In this document: piece after piece, positions 17,056 through 41,388 of the stretch
How the letters are laid out: every line of letters begins with the position of its first letter
Position numbering within the stretch: the first letter of the stretch is position 1
Source of the DNA: Lunularia cruciata
Lineage: Eukaryota > Streptophyta > Marchantiopsida > Lunulariales > Lunulariaceae
NCBI GenBank assembly: GCA_948567375.1
Contig: OX419758.1
Location: 66,865,965 to 66,929,964 of the forward strand
Reading direction: 5' to 3'
DNA: 64,000 bases
The notes under the pieces: generated by a model
Told to the model about the DNA's origin: nothing
The model's database searches: none
The model's input: the letters and a program-made list of their open reading frames with translations, nothing else
Program-made: the position numbers and the translations under genes

Positions 17056-17061
17056 AGAGCA

Positions 17062-17325
17062 ATGGGTAAGGAAGAGTCTATCCTACTCATAAAGGAGTTT
17101 CATGAAGGTTTAGTATGTGGAGGACACTTTACAGGAAAGGTGACTGCTTTCAAGATTCTAGATGTAGGTTACCATTGGAGAAGGACTTTTAAGGATTGTC
17201 TTGATTATTGCAAAACTTGTCATGTTTGTCAAGCTTTTGATAGAAAGTCTACATCCACTCCACCACTAAGATCAATTCTATTGCTAGTACCTTTTGAGAA
17301 GTGGTGAATTGATGTTGTAAGTCCT
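17062..17325 (+). pseudogene. Integrase N-terminus of A1, cut off at an LTR-B
   Basis: Reads MGKEESILLIKEFHEGLVCGG, with the HHCC zinc motif completed by CKTCHVCQAF, and then KW-stop-IDVVSP, where other copies have the first catalytic Asp of the core (GIDFVGP). It ends at GTCCT (17321-17325), replaced by the family B LTR. A4 resumes with CCTCGCACTAG at 36583. In uninterrupted copies GTCCTC and ATAGAACCCC are joined directly, so nothing but the overlap CCT is duplicated or lost. Confidence 0.85.
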
Positions 17326-17872
17326 TAGTCACGCCATTTGTAGTGCCGCATCTAGATGCTCGGACACTGGAGTTCCAGTGATAGTAGTTAGAGTTATTCT
17401 AGCAGTTTCTCAAAGACTACTTTTTGACGGTTAGATTTTGTGTTCGGGGTATTGACTTCATGGTGGGGCCCACCATCACTTTGCACCGTCGAGTGTGCCG
17501 TCAGCGGGACCGTTAGGGTTTCAGTGCTAGCTTGAGTCCAGGGGGTATAGTTACTAAGTGAGCTCTAGAGAGCTCACTTCTCTGATGTTGAGCCTTCGAG
17601 TTCTTGGCTATGGTGGACAGAGGCCGGTGAGCGTCACCTGGATTCTCTAAGCTTCAGTGGGTGTGGCTTGACTGTAATCAGTGCCCAGTTGTTGGTAGTT
17701 TATAGAGTGACAGATCAAGTACTTATCTGAGTTGAGTTAAGTTGAGTGTGGTAAGCAATATGATTATTGTGGCACTTTAGAGTCTATGTATGACTTATGT
17801 GTGAGTTGTGCTTCTATAGTGTATGATGTTGACAGCGATGTATGTTGTGTAGCAATGTATATACGCACAACA
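17326..17872 (+). repeat. LTR of family B, copy 1
   Basis: 547 bp, starting TAGTCACGCC (TGTC in other copies) and ending ATACGCACAACA. The last 105 bp (17768-17872, starting TGTGGCAC) form a module that also occurs separately at 36584-36688 and 37269-37373. Left flank is A1 integrase, right flank is family C RNase H, with no matching target duplication. It is probably the 5' LTR of the PHD element now at 36584-41388. Confidence 0.8.
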
Positions 17873-25955: not shown

Positions 25956-26491
25956 ATCATGTGTATATACATCACTGTCAACATCATACACTATAGAAGC
26001 ACAACTCACACATAAGTCATACATAGACTCTAAAGTGCCATAATAATCAGATTGTTTACAACTCTCAAATACACTCATGTCAGATCAGTACTTGATCTAT
26101 CACTCTATAAACTCCAAGAATTGGGCACTTATTATAGTCAAGCCACACCCTCTCTAGCTAAGAGAATCTAGGTGATGCTCACCAACCTCTATCCACCATA
26201 GCTAGGAACTCAAAGACTCAACATCAGAGAAGTGAGCTCTCTGGAGCTGCACTTTGAAAGTATACCCCTAGACTCAAGTTAGGTCTGAAACCCTAATGGT
26301 CCCGCTGATGGCACACTTGATGGTGCAAATAGTGCAAGGTGATGGTGTGCCCCATCAAGAAGTCAGTACCCCAAACATGAAACCTGACTATCTTAAGTAG
26401 TCTTTGAGAAACTACTGAAATAACTCAAACTATTATCATTGGAACTCCAATGTTTGAGCAATCTAGATGCGACACTACAAATTGCATGACA
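25956..26491 (-). repeat. Solo LTR of family B inside A2 RNase H
   Basis: 536 bp, minus-strand reading starts TGTCATGCAATTTG and ends TATACACATGAT. Flanks ACATT (25951-25955) and ATATT (26492-26496) are a near-perfect 5-bp target duplication, and the RNase H frame LYIDAS is continuous across it in other copies. This copy shows that the family B LTR unit is the full 540 bp, not only its 105-bp end module. Confidence 0.85.
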
Positions 26492-35699: not shown

Positions 35700-36583
35700 G
35701 TTTTTACTTTGTACTCAAAGTGAAGGTCTCTCTACCTTCTATGATACATCTTCAACTTATCATGGTTAATCCTATCAAAGTGTCTTCTTCCCAACTCCTT
35801 GAGATCATAGGTGTAATTGCCCCACACCTTCCCCACTATGAAAGTTCCAAAGTACTTAGGCAAAAACTTCTTTTGCACTCTCTTGAATCGAACAAAATCG
35901 AACAACATTACCCAATCACCTTCTTTGAAAGTCTCCACCTTCTTCTTGCCTTGCCGTTTGTCATAGCTCTCCTTTTGCTTCCTTTGGGCTTGCTCCACTC
36001 AAACCATAGCAACTGCTCTTGCCTCTTCCAACTCCATGAGTTGATCCTTCCTTGACTTCTCTTCATCACCCCCTTGTGCTTTCTTCAATCTCCTATGAAT
36101 GCTTTGGAAGGTAGGAAGATCAAAGTGAATAGGTAAGGTAGACTCAATACCATTTACCAATTGAAATGGAGAATATTCGGTGGAAGTCTTCATGGTTTTC
36201 CTATACTCCCACAAAAGTGCATGAATCCTCTTGTCCCAATGATGTTTAGCCCCCTTCATTTCTGCATCTTTGGCCAACATCATGCACAAGGTCTGATTGG
36301 TTCTCTCTGCCAAGCCATTGGAATTTGGCTTATAGGATGTAGTTACTCTATGTGTGATAGAGAAATGTCGTAGCATGGCTGTAGTGATGCTTCCTGTAAA
36401 CTCTCCTCCTCTATCAGAAACCAACTCCAAAGGGCACCCAAACCTAGTGATAATGCATTCATAAAGAAATCTCCCAACTTCATCTTCATTCTTGTCCCTC
36501 AATGGTCTAGCCTCAACCCACTTAGTAAGGTAATCAGTAACTACCACAATGTACCAATTGTTCCTTGGGGTTCTAGTGCGAGG
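35700..36583 (-). pseudogene. Integrase core to C-terminus of A4
   Basis: Reads TPRNNWYIVVVTDYLTKWVEARPL, the second Asp in LVSDRGGEF, Glu in NGLAERTNQTL, then STEYSPFQLVNGIESTLP, a stop near 36000, and a basic tail with EGDWVMLFDFVRFKRV and FGTFIV (GPF/Y-like). It has no chromodomain and ends at the polypurine tract. The first part of the core, with the first Asp, is at 17325 on the other strand. Confidence 0.88.
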
Positions 36584-37401
36584 TGTCGTGCGTATATACA
36601 TCGCTACACAACATACATCGTTGTCAACATCATACACTATAGAAGCACAACTCACACATAAGCCATACATAGACTCTAAAGTGCCACAATCGCCCCCCTA
36701 GTTGGCAGTTAGGCCCTGTCGTGCGTGTATACATCACTACACAATATAGATCGCTGTCAACATCAAACACTATAGAAACACAACTCACACATTAGTCATA
36801 CATAGACTCTAAAGTGCCACAATAATCAGATTGCTTAACACTCTCAACTCAACTCAACTCAGATCAATACTTGATCTGTCACTCTATAAACTACCAACAA
36901 CTAGGCACTGATTACAATCAAGCCACACCCACTCAAGCATAGAGAATCCAAGTGATGCTCCCCGGCCTCTGTCCATCATAGCCAGGAACTCAAAGGCTCA
37001 ACATTTTTTGAAGTGAGCTCTCTAGAGCTCACTTCAAAACTATACCCCCTGGACTTGAGGTAACACTGAAACCCTAACGGTCTCGCTGACGGCACACTTG
37101 ACGGTGCAAATGGTGCAAAGTGACGGTGGGCCCCACCGTGAAGTCAGTACCCCGAACACCAAATCTGACCGTCGGAAAGTAGTCTCTTAGATACTGCTGC
37201 TCTAACTACTATCACTGGAACTCCAGTGTCCAAGCATCTAGGTGTGGAACTACAAATGGCGTGATAGCTATCATGCGTATATACATTGCTACACAACATA
37301 CATCGCTGTCAACATCATACACTATAGAAACACAACTCACACATAAGTCATACATAGACTCTAAAGTGCCACAATCGCCCCCCAAGCTGGCGGTTAGGTC
37401 C
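36584..37401 (-). repeat. Compound family B LTR array
   Basis: Read on the minus strand: a 28-bp block P1 (37374-37401, with GGGGGGCGAT), 105-bp module X1 (37269-37373), GC, a full LTR-B (36717-37266, ending in X2), a second 28-bp block P2 (36689-36716, again with GGGGGGCGAT), and module X3 (36584-36688). Each X starts TGTGGCAC and ends GCACGACA or a variant. P looks like a polypurine tract, so P-X resembles a genuine internal/LTR junction, yet elsewhere the LTR unit is 540 bp and starts TGTC. The origin of this arrangement is not settled by the sequence. Confidence 0.7.
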
Positions 37402-37542
37402 CTCTAACTCCAGATAGCCATCTACTCTAAGTATATGGTATACCCTCTAATGGGCAAAGATCAGGAGGCCGGGTGCTATGGGGCCCCATTGTTAGTCGCC
37501 TGTCTGCAATCTATACCATGTAAAGAATGAACTAGCTATAGG

Positions 37543-38830
37543 TCAAGTACATCTAGGACATAACCACTGTCCCTGAGGAACCACCGTGAGGGGAGGAGTC
37601 ATACATGTCATATGCCATCCTCTCGAACAGCTATCACACACTAACATAGTAGTAGCTCCACCAGAAGAGCCACATAACATACACCTCAAGCCTGCATGTA
37701 CAAGTGCCAAGCTTGGGTCCATAGTACCATCAATGTTTGGGAGGTGGCATGGTGCACAATTGCGCACATTATCCTTCCAAACAACACCATCATGTCCTTC
37801 TAACACAAGGACTCCAGATGGCAAAACCTCACACACTCTCAAGATAGTGCGGCTTGTAGAAACATCAAGTGTCATCGGTGCTATCTGCTGTAGATATACA
37901 TAGTTGCCTGGATGAAATTGAGGGATCGAGGGTCTATAACCTCCTCCTTGAATGGTAGCATAGCATAAAGTATCTCTATGCTGAGCAATCGCCAAGTTCT
38001 CAAAGGCCATCGGCATCACTCTCCGAAAGATCTCTATCCGCTGAGAACATGCGCTCATCCATACATCAAGGTCATCCAAGTCCAAAACTACAGTAGCATC
38101 TTGACGAATGGCTGTAGGTAAATTTGGATCTCATCCATAGAGTAGAAAGTATGGAGAGAAGGATGCTAAGGAGGCGTGCCGGCTGAACTGATAGCCCATG
38201 GCCAACCAAGGTAACTGGAGATCCCAATCTCCCAAGTGGCCTCTCTGTAGACCATACTTTCGCAATCCTCTCTTCACCGTCTGAACCACTCTCTCTGCTA
38301 AGCCATCTGCCTCAAGGTGATCTCGGGATGTAGTACAATGATCAATCAAAGCCTTGTCACACAAGACCTGAAACTCCCCCAAGAACTTTGTACCCTGATC
38401 AGTCAAAACCTCAGTTGGTGCACCAAAATGACTAAGAACTCGATCCAGGAACAAGTAAGTTGTCCCTTCACTAGACTTGTTAGGAAGTGCCACCAACTCA
38501 ATCCACTTGGAGAAGTGCTCCACCATCACCAAAACGTACCAATGATGTGTCACAGTCAGCGGTAAAGATCCAACAAAGTCCAAACTCCAATGGTAACCCA
38601 ATCCCATGATATGTAATGGGTGTAACTGTGGCGTAGGAGCATTGAATGATGCTCTAACTCGGTCACAAACCACACATCTGGCAATAAACTACTATACCTC
38701 GGTCTGCATACCGTGCCACCAATAATGACTCTGGAGTAAGCTATACATACGCTTTACTCCAAAATGTCCTAACTCCTCATGAGCATGTCGGACCAACTGT
38801 GGTCTCTTTGATGGAAGTGGTACTACTTGC
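37543..38830 (-). pseudogene. Integrase fused to a C-terminal PHD finger
   Basis: Zinc motif: HAHEELGH near 38790 and CVVCDRV near 38670, with stops between. The core runs from 38673: first Asp in SLDFVGSLP, second in LTDQGTKFLG, Glu in ADGLAERVVQTVKRGL, and YQFSRHASLASFSPYFLLYG. One in-frame TGA (38133-38131) follows, and the same frame continues to 37543. After a linker it has a C4HC3 PHD finger at 37683-37546: Cys-x2-Cys-x11-Cys-x2-Cys-x4-His-x2-Cys-x14-Cys-x2-Cys, with the conserved Trp two residues before the seventh Cys, and it stops one residue after the last Cys. PHD fingers read histone H3 tails. In this position it takes the place of the chromodomain and may target integration. Confidence 0.9.
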
Positions 38831-39038
38831 ACTCTACCATACTCCCATACACACAAAAGGTGCTACCCTCCAATCTGAACCATCTGGCTCGCTGAAGAAC
38901 ACGTTCTCTCTCCTTGGTCCCAAGTGTGCCACCCACAACACCAGTGCAAAGATAGTCCATCACTAAGACATCATCATGAATGTCTCGCTGAACTGTACCA
39001 ATATCTTCACTCTCTGGATCTGTGACCACAATAACTCC

Positions 39039-40547
39039 TCATGTATGCGCTGAGAGAGATACCACCAAAGCCTCTGCAAATATACACAAAAAGGCCGATG
39101 CATGCCAACTTGGCACCATCTCCTCATCTGTCTCACCATGCCAACGTGCTCCGGTCTGATCCTGCTGGCTGGGACATGGGTTTCTACTCAACCCATCTGC
39201 ATCACGGTTCACCACTCCAGGTCTGTGAACAACCGTGAAATCATACTTTTGTAAAATCAGAGCCCATTGTGCAAGCTTCCCTGAAAGCTTGTCGGACTCC
39301 ATCAACCACTTCAGCGGCTGATGATCAGTGATGAGAGTGAAGGGGTTACCAAATAGGTAACATTTGAAATGTGCTATTGCCCAAACTGCTGCCAAGCACT
39401 CTCCCTCATATGAACTATACTTCGCCTCCACTGAATTATTGGAGCGACTAGCATAGGCCACCACAAACTCCTTCTCTTCATCATCATGTTGGGTGAGCAC
39501 CGCTCCAAGCCCTTACATACTCCAATCAGTGTGAACCTGAAATGGTCGTCCCCTGATTGGTCTCCTCAAAATAGGAGCAGATGTCAACCTCTCCTTGAGC
39601 TCTACAAAAGCTCTCTCCTACTCATCTCCCCAACACCACTCCTGTGTAAGCTTGGTCAGCTTCGTCAAGGCCTTGGCAATGGCACTAAATCCTCTAACAT
39701 AGCGACGATAGAAGTTTGCCAACCCAAGGAATGCTCGCACTCTGCTCACATCCGTAGGCCAAGGAATACGTGCAATAGCTTCCACCTTGGTCTACTGAAC
39801 ACCAAGTCCTCCGGGGTAGATAGTGTGACCCAAATACTCAACTTATTCGTGGAAGAACCTACACTTCTCAGGATGTAGTTTGAGTCCATGAGATCTCAAC
39901 CTTTCAAACACCTCCAACAACTAACTCTCATGCTCCTCCACAATAGTGCTATAAACCAAAATGTCATCAATATAGCACCGAGCAAAATCCAATCCAGCTA
40001 GGATCCTATCCATGACCCTCTGGAACTCAGCAAGAGCGTTCTTTAACCCAAATGGTAAGAACCTCCACTGATATAACACATCCTTGCCGTGAGGATCAAT
40101 AGCCCAAAATGTTGTCTTGGACTTATCCTCCTCCCTAATCAGCAATTGATGATATCCCGCTTGAAGATCCAAAGTATTGAAGACCTTTGCATGCCCAATC
40201 GCATCAAAAATCTCCTCCGGTGTAGGCATGGCATACCAATCAGCCCTGGTCTGTCGGTTGATAGGACGGTAATCTCCACATGTCCGCCTATCTGTATAGT
40301 TGCCATGCGTATCCTTCTTGGCTGACATCACTGTTGCTGATGCATACTCTCCATGTGAAATCTCCACCAAACTAGCCTCAAAAAGGTCACTACTCCGGCT
40401 CTGAATCAATGTCCTCTCCATATAACTATATCGATAAGGACATCGGAAAATTGGTGTGTCACTAGTCAGCTCAATCCGTATACCAAGTCCCTTCAGAGCA
40501 CCCAAATCCTTCATACTGAAGGCAAAACAACTCATGTGACTCCTCAA
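39039..40547 (-). pseudogene. Reverse transcriptase and RNase H of the PHD element
   Basis: From 40547: TCGDYRPINRQT, NTLDLQAGYHQL, FLPFGLKNALAEFQRVM, and the catalytic box CYIDDILVYS at about 39960-39990. Stops follow at about 39921, 39840 and 39800, with FLGLANFYRRYVRGF between them. RNase H: VHTDWSM with the first Asp, then VAYASRSNNSVEAKYSSYEGECLAAVW with the Glu, LITDHQPLKWLM, and RDADGLSRNP. The linker continues to 38823 towards integrase. Several of the stops are TAG or TAA at likely Gln positions. Confidence 0.87.
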
Positions 40548-41388
40548 GAACCTCCAAACCCTCCGTCTTTCCTCTCCAGTAAGCTTGGGTCCAAGATCTG
40601 GCTCCCAAGTATCCTCTGTAACTATAGTGGGAGTGGAAGACGTACTGACAGGCTGCTACACTGGGCCCTTGGGAGCAATAGTGTCATGCTTCTGACCACT
40701 AGAGGTCCCCACCTCTATGTGAAAAACTCCCTCCACTCTGGCTGCAATCTCCACACGTCCTCTAGCTGCATCCTATGTGGACCAAGGGTGTAATCCAAGT
40801 AGCCCACCTGGATGGACTCCAAGTAGATCACTCTCCCTAGTAGCTACTGGATGTGTCCCAAGAATACCATGTCCACTTGGTCCATCGCCCCCAGCATGTG
40901 CCTGAATCGTCTCGATAGGCACAGGGCTCACAAGTGTCCGAGTGGTGATGCCTATCAAGCGCATCCTACGCTGCTCTGCCAAGCCAAGGCTCACAATCCA
41001 GGTCAAACAGTTCAGGTCCATAGCCTGACCTAACACCTGACGCCTGGATGCCTTTGACACTATTGGAATAGCGGTAATACCGGTGCAAAAACCTATCGCC
41101 CGCTCTCTCTCATCAGCGTTGGGCTCCACCAACTGCTATAACTGTGAGTCCCAACAAGTCCAGGTCCTCTCTCTCAAAAAGCATGAGAGCCTTGGAAACT
41201 CATGAGTGTGGGAAATGCGGCTCTAGGCTGTCCAACTAGGTTCACCATTGCCATAGGTGACCTATCAGCCACTACCACTGTCTGAGACTGATGCCCAACA
41301 TCCAAGATATCCTCAACAACAATGTGGTCAAGTCGCTGAATCCCATCATAAGCACGCTGTAGAACCTCTCTGGGTAAGAGGTTCGTCC
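40548..41388 (-). pseudogene. Region upstream of RT in the PHD element, function not recognised
   Basis: The minus strand reads REVLQRAYDGIQRLDHIVVED at 41370, then MVEPNADERERAIGF and IPIVSKASRRQVLGQAMDLN (41132-40773). The last may be part of a protease domain, but I find no D-S/T-G motif. The gag and PBS are absent. The segment ends abruptly at the A3 LTR. Confidence 0.4.

Follow-up and report, generated by a model that had tools for sequence, protein, structure and literature searches.

A dead copy of a Ty3/Gypsy retroelement whose integrase ends in a PHD finger lies on the minus strand of a 64,000-nucleotide stretch of Lunularia cruciata DNA (the window, by which we mean the whole stretch analyzed). 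In our reading, to which we assign a probability of about 0.45, elements of this family would make their polymerase (pol) by readthrough of a UAG codon, their integrase would open an X-GC-A junction carried on a circle or end-abutted form, and the PHD finger would tether that integrase to nucleosomes, most likely ones unmodified at H3K4 (K4me0).

Results

The window holds the 3′ half of a decaying element

The element copy occupies positions 36717 to 41388 (minus strand, as are all window coordinates below unless stated otherwise), running from the end of ORF1 to a terminal repeat, X2, with 94% identity to the genome copy L018 over 4686 columns. The 5′ half is absent, and no first A repeat joined to the copy was found in the window. 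The parts retained are, in element order, a C-terminal piece of a DNMT3-like methyltransferase ORF (40776 to 41135, within the stretch matching L018); a UAG at the boundary between this ORF and pol (40656 to 40658, followed by CAG CCT in the window copy); reverse transcriptase (39921 to 40655; PF00078, E = 3e-15); RNase H (39039 to 39512; PF17917, E = 8.2e-31); and the integrase core (38134 to 38688; PF00665, rve, E = 9e-13). By itself the methyltransferase piece gave no Pfam match; its counterpart in ORF1 of L018 matches PF00145 and the DNMT3A and DNMT3B chains. Alignment columns place the D, D, and E codons of the integrase at 38580-38578, 38400-38398, and 38295-38293, and of 94 aligned rows the first of these columns has D in 70 (21 gaps), the second D in 93, and the third E in 93.

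On translation, a TGA at 38131 to 38133 parts the integrase core from an open frame of 195 amino acids plus a stop codon (37543 to 38130), which Pfam and protein matches identify as the integrase C-terminal domain (CTD) and PHD finger. The PHD finger itself (37549 to 37683) matches PF00628 (E = 1.3e-11; score 44.8 bits, cut-off 24), with the C4HC3 zinc ligands at Cys 150, 153, 165, 168, 176, 191, and 194 and His 173 of the 195-residue stretch. An earlier note on this DNA had described an integrase core and a PHD finger in one frame broken by a single TGA, naming no strand; that description is borne out on the minus strand. Its ligand placement also holds, the present numbers being the earlier ones plus 15, and the frame, said to end right after the last Cys, ends one residue beyond it. 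Translation reveals more stops upstream.

About 160 bases past the end of the frame lies a G-rich tract (GGGGGGCG, 37376 to 37383), a possible polypurine tract that has an equivalent place in the other element copies displayed. The sequence beyond it is no ordinary LTR. It consists of the repeats X1 (37271 to 37375; 96% identical to X of L018), A2 (36823 to 37264; 89% identical to A of L030), and X2 (36717 to 36823; 93% identical to X). Sequence matches identify an extra piece at 36581 to 36716 as the end of the internal region and another X, which abuts half of a Tat-like integrase ORF (35987-36574). Some 19 kb away and in the opposite orientation, a solo A-X (17328 to 17872, plus strand; 93% over 554 columns), at which no 4-bp target site duplication (TSD) was seen, adjoins the other half of an ORF like it (both within 17056-17872). 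The window also contains a solo A with a partial X (25967 to 26491; 85% over 528 columns). The abutting X, the solo A-X, and the split Tat-like ORF halves are probably a rearranged nest of insertions. Against open copies from the genome, the window copy has a dN/dS of 1.25 in the CTD and, from 4 synonymous differences, of 1.97 in the PHD finger, so it is decaying; truncated as well, the window copy is a fossil.

Fuller copies encode a methyltransferase upstream of pol

In fuller copies the order is ORF1, ending in a DNMT3-like methyltransferase, then a UAG, reverse transcriptase, RNase H, integrase, and PHD finger. The pol ORF measures 1037 to 1043 amino acids in 12 copies, and ORF1 lies upstream of it in the same frame. 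In L018, ORF1 (L018:2380-4386) matches PF00145 (E = 7.3e-7) and aligns with a DNMT3A chain (E = 3.9e-10), the PC and ENV motifs of this C5 methyltransferase included; the domain is also found in L010 and L020 by Pfam and in L045 (L045:3-3488), a relative about 68% identical. The earlier note mentioned neither the methyltransferase nor the split repeats described below, both of which are present in the element family. L020 has a gag match below the cut-off (E = 0.044), and L045 presents, in order, a sub-cut-off protease match, methyltransferase, UAG, reverse transcriptase, RNase H, integrase, and PHD finger. The plus strand of the first 1.1 kb of the element in L018 contains no ORF of at least 80 amino acids. 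Precomputed Pfam annotation places a methyltransferase in proteins of Marchantia (P0243 and P0246) and Closterium (P0251) as well. In another methyltransferase-bearing relative, P0218, what may be another chromatin reader follows the PHD finger, a weak, sub-cut-off match to Tudor (PTM_DIR17, E = 8e-4).

The codons around the UAG are TAG CAG CCA in all 12 copies besides the window (L018:4387-4389 and equivalents) and TAG CAA TCA in L045 (L045:3489-3491), so that two elements about 68% identical both part ORF1 from pol by a UAG in a CAR-YYA context. Tobamoviruses use UAG-CAR-YYA as their readthrough signal, and we infer from this context that pol would be made by readthrough of the UAG. The order of reverse transcriptase, RNase H, and integrase (H2C2 and rve) in pol of L018 and L045 is that of Ty3/Gypsy elements. 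Pfam detected no chromodomain, the mark of chromoviruses, in the pol ORFs scanned, a PHD finger being found instead, and no tyrosine recombinase in the frames scanned.

The integrase-PHD module recurs in green plants

The search for relatives that the earlier note had named as a check was productive. In the genome (565.8 Mb in 74 contigs, window included), 150 integrase-PHD places were scored from 11,725 first-look candidates, and these are 88 to 92% identical, the window's own place excepted. With the 195-residue CTD and PHD piece as query, 171 proteins matched at E ≤ 1e-3; among the 120 listed, the best are 73 to 74% identical over the full length and come from Marchantia polymorpha, Calypogeia fissa, and Sphagnum fallax. 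Residues 440-695 of a 695-residue piece of an open copy, used as a second query, matched 198 proteins, and PF00628 appears in the precomputed Pfam column of 116 of the 120 listed, among which is a transcriptome ORF, P0129. Sources among the matches listed include Klebsormidium nitens, whose integrase-PHD proteins P0141 and P0154 are relatives, Tetrabaena socialis, Volvox reticuliferus, Pleodorina starrii, and the code Chrzof1, which we take to be Chromochloris zofingiensis. Under a strict pattern, the full set of C4HC3 ligands is present in 167 of 240 proteins (60/120 for the CTD and PHD query, 107/120 for the open-copy query), while the remaining 73 may be fragments, decayed copies, or true absences. 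The identity of the window piece to two Sphagnum fallax proteins (P0097 and P0098) and five liverwort proteins (P0001-P0005), 55 to 77%, is high for a retroelement.

A search of genome contigs yielded seven loci, of which L045 to L049 were used and L050 (31%) and L051 (27%) left out; viral contigs yielded 0 relatives. L045 to L049 sit in contigs filed as prokaryote genomes, that of L045 being labelled a cyanobacterial MAG, and we take them for eukaryotic contamination. Bursts of Ty3/Gypsy elements have been reported in the text of a study of Lunularia cruciata (PMC9985172).

Codon alignments of 12 copies, chosen for open pol frames, gave dN/dS values of 0.33 for the PHD finger (38 synonymous and 44 nonsynonymous differences, summed over pairs), 0.32 for reverse transcriptase-RNase H, 0.47 for the integrase core, and 0.47 for the CTD; the last 400 amino acids of ORF1 gave 0.52 (8 copies). 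Integrase and PHD distances are correlated (Mantel r = 0.43, n = 93), the highest value in 2000 shuffles being 0.14.

Reverse transcriptase comparison matched 4219 proteins (8000 candidates scored). Among the 120 nearest listed, PF00628 occurs in 45, PF00145 in 11, and both in 4; some of the 75 proteins lacking PF00628 are fragments. PHD-less yet integrase-bearing are a Closterium protein with methyltransferase, reverse transcriptase, and integrase and several animal and Tetstr1-coded entries. Conversely, L048 and L049 have reverse transcriptase, RNase H, integrase, and PHD finger with no methyltransferase match, as does L047, whose 5′ end is cut. Given these PHD-less and methyltransferase-less relatives, the two domains are overlapping, non-universal features of a larger group.

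Nearly all PHD fingers lack the Trp of the K4me3 cage

The residue two before the ligand His, which we take to be the aromatic-cage Trp position of K4me3 readers, is Gly in 158, Ala in 6, and Trp in 1 of the 167 strict PHD fingers. This count weakens a reading of methylated H3K4, and the H3K4me3-reader class is rejected on it; the prevalence of Gly makes the unmodified-H3K4 type likelier. Acidic loop residues are typical of K4me0 readers; in the loop stretch inspected, 84/167 PHD fingers have no acidic residue and 62/167 have two or more. The best 60 of 77 solved chains comprise CHD4, KMT2, KDM5, DPF3, KAT6, PHF21A, UHRF1, and similar types, and no ING, BPTF, or TAF3 chain is among them. Chains of the CHD4, KMT2, KDM5, DPF3, and PHF21A type are, we assume, mostly readers of unmodified H3K4. 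From these sequence features we infer that the element's PHD finger may read histones.

Insertion surroundings were compared using the 20 flanks of 10 complete copies and the other sampled loci (~0.33 Mb). Seventeen of the 20 flanks matched other sampled loci; among 91 control tiles lying at distances above 3 kb, 33 did (Fisher P = 1e-4), and counted per insertion site, 9/10 matched (P = 7e-4). Matches to the family itself were found for 7/20 flanks (four copies) versus 6/91 control tiles. In a second control, 94 of 117 window tiles outside the window copy matched the sampled loci, near the flank rate, and the enrichment is therefore control dependent. An insertion preference for repeats is possible, and survivorship would give the identical picture.

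Split repeats carry the element ends as an internal junction

In 10 of 12 copies the ends follow the order A-internal-X-GC-A-X, that is, split repeats of DIRS type, with A of 449 bp (TGTCACGCC...GATTA) and X of 107 bp (...CGCACGACA). A perfect 4-bp TSD lies just outside A1 and X2 in nine of the 10 complete copies (TAGT, CATA, TCAT, TATT, AGTT, CTTT, CTTG, GCAA, and CAGA); L017 has complete ends without one. Of the two others, L010 lacks A2-X2 and reads A-internal-X, flanked by ACAT left and right, and L015 breaks off within A2. Both flanks of L011 have their like in the right flank of L010, which would fit two insertions, at sites separated by a few bases, into copies of one host repeat.

The insertion ends defined in this way are TGTC... 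and ...GACA, and inside the element they abut with GC between them. Genome-wide, with at most one mismatch, X-GC-A was counted 1059 times, A-X 3150 times, and A-internal 2666 times; the same three patterns read backwards were found 0 times each. That A-X outnumbers X-GC-A points to many pieces of solo A-X, but X-GC-A, being rich in CpG, may be undercounted. By exact matching, X-GC-A-X occurs at 403 places versus 3 for X-GC-A-internal (C2:22744182, C2:30624146, and C12:22646586); internal sequence precedes each of the three, which are probably tandem recombinants formed by recombination at A. A1 and A2 diverge by 0.45 to 3.35%, with a mean of 7.4 differences within copies versus 10.1 between copies. 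Covariation of X1 and X2 is weak (3 shared variants against a permutation mean of 0.84; P = 0.023; 18 copies with a full-length X pair, of 22 right ends). An ordinary LTR structure is rejected on these layouts, in which identical LTRs are not found. The copies have the split direct repeats of DIRS elements and depart from them in showing no tyrosine recombinase in the frames scanned and in bearing 4-bp TSDs.

The junction core GACAGCTGTCACG also lies 3′ of the PHD finger in L045, L046, and L047 (46 to 68% identity), which are all the relatives with more than 2 kb there; its chance occurrence, by length, is <1e-4 in each. L048 and L049 retain 154 and 63 bases 3′ of the long ORF, too short for the junction. 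In L046 the core sits inside a perfect palindrome of 20 bp, where 60 shuffles gave at most 14, and in L047 inside one of 16 bp, a length that is not unusual since shuffles reach it too. Split repeats were not seen in the L045 to L047 contigs; that of L045 closes on itself (127 identical bases) and so contains each repeat once.

Discussion

In the mechanism that we favor, the internal X-GC-A would serve as template for completing the cDNA to a circle or an end-abutted form, whose junction the DDE integrase would open on both sides of the GC, inserting the A and X ends. A PHD finger without the K4me3 cage would tether the integrase to nucleosomes, most likely those unmodified at H3K4, and would thereby bring insertions into silent DNA rich in repeats, a setting in which the methyltransferase of the element could act too. 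A circular or end-abutted intermediate fits the pairing of a DDE integrase and TSDs with split repeats and internally abutted ends. Abutted ends a few bases apart are also what DDE enzymes handle in IS3-type minicircles and in foamy virus, whose integrase cleaves a palindromic 2-LTR junction; the likeness is an analogy of mechanism only.

The same integrated product would arise if the true LTR were X-GC-A, extending from the G-rich tract to the primer site, if ordinary reverse transcription yielded LTR-internal-LTR DNA, and if the 2-LTR circle closed from it were opened at the internal palindrome. X1 does begin right after the tract, and the A-X seam would then be joined LTR ends; however, the A2-X2 seam is constant in 21 of 22 right ends (L038 is without X2), which argues mildly against end joining, no tRNA-type TGG primer site directly follows A, and the ordinary order with internal sequence after X-GC-A is confined to the three places above. 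We consider this arrangement unlikely, at odds that keep it in view. The palindrome might instead be conserved as a transcription factor site, TGACAGCTGTCA, found in full in L046 and L047, resembling what we take to be TALE/KNOX-BELL sites. That explanation is very improbable: the TSDs fix the element ends precisely at GACA and TGTC, separated by GC, and the left half is CGACA rather than TGACA in L045 and in the L009-L020 copies displayed (CAACA in L017).

As for the PHD finger, it may extend the integrase for structural or protein-binding purposes, such as folding, multimerization, or import, instead of reading histones. Half of the PHD fingers lack the acidic loop residues, all but one of those scored lack the cage Trp, and binding is not readable from sequence alone; against this, the C4HC3 pattern is canonical, the best solved matches are histone-reader PHD fingers, and the position parallels that of the chromodomain. 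We judge such a role improbable while giving it some weight. The refuting outcome that the earlier note had set out, a host PHD gene joined by chance to a piece of retroelement or disrupted at this site, could draw on the stops that interrupt the frame in the window; it is contradicted by the 150 genome places and the homologues in many green plants, and its probability is negligible. The PHD finger is a recurrent C-terminal module of Gypsy integrase, neither an accident nor a broken host gene, and the earlier comparison with the chromodomain place of chromoviruses is upheld in this form. Extended to the whole group, our favored mechanism would describe a deep green-plant Gypsy lineage whose end-abutted circles are opened at GACA^GC^TGTC, whose PHD finger directs insertion to H3K4-unmethylated chromatin, and whose own DNMT3 places marks on the copy or the DNA around it, a proposition that we hold tentatively and at well short of even odds.

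The Lunularia element combines features of several known systems. DIRS, PAT, and Ngaro are tyrosine-recombinase retroelements. The repeat order described for DIRS, A-internal-B-A-B (text of PMC5890265), is like the A-internal-X-A-X of the Lunularia element, which differs in its DDE integrase and 4-bp TSDs. The closest described element is KnitGypsy-Dnmt3 of Klebsormidium nitens, which has a DNMT3 in the Pol ORF and for which Gypsy domains and DIRS-type repeats are given in the Fig. 4 legend (de Mendoza et al. 2018, PMC5890265), all features shared with the Lunularia element. The methyltransferase and split repeats are already published for this one alga (PMC5890265), and to that extent the type is not wholly undescribed, although the earlier note was not aware of a well-described plant group. 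The word "phd" occurs 0 times in the main text of that article, with which our comparison is by description only. Chromoviruses, as presented in PMC6317226, likewise join Gypsy pol to a C-terminal chromatin-reader-type domain on the integrase, and differ from the Lunularia element, which has a PHD finger for the chromodomain, split repeats, and a methyltransferase; PHD occurs 0 times in the main text of PMC6317226. Phygy and Selgy in the same text (PMC6317226) are also Gypsy elements without a chromodomain from seed-free plants; by target motif, identity with Phygy is rejected, its NCGN preference fitting 0 of 10 TSDs here. Ginger1-9_HM, as described in the text of PMC2836005, has a Gypsy-like integrase with a C-terminal PHD finger and differs in being a DNA transposon, which has terminal inverted repeats and Ulp1 but no reverse transcriptase. 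In the open-licence literature, searched by titles and abstract starts, we recognized no paper on the PHD finger of a plant Gypsy integrase, and in the open-licence literature we found no other paper on split-end TSDs or the junction in a Gypsy element with methyltransferase and split repeats.

The chromodomain is the textbook case of a retroelement choosing its landing site via a histone reader. If true, the presence of an unrelated reader-type domain in that position, in lineages ranging from chlorophyte algae to liverworts, would amount to an independent solution that can be tested. Split repeats usually pair with tyrosine recombinases; their combination with a DDE integrase breaks that pairing and offers one conserved junction for studying how an integrase substrate is formed. 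The element-borne methyltransferase, in turn, bears on what retroelements that carry DNMTs gain from them.
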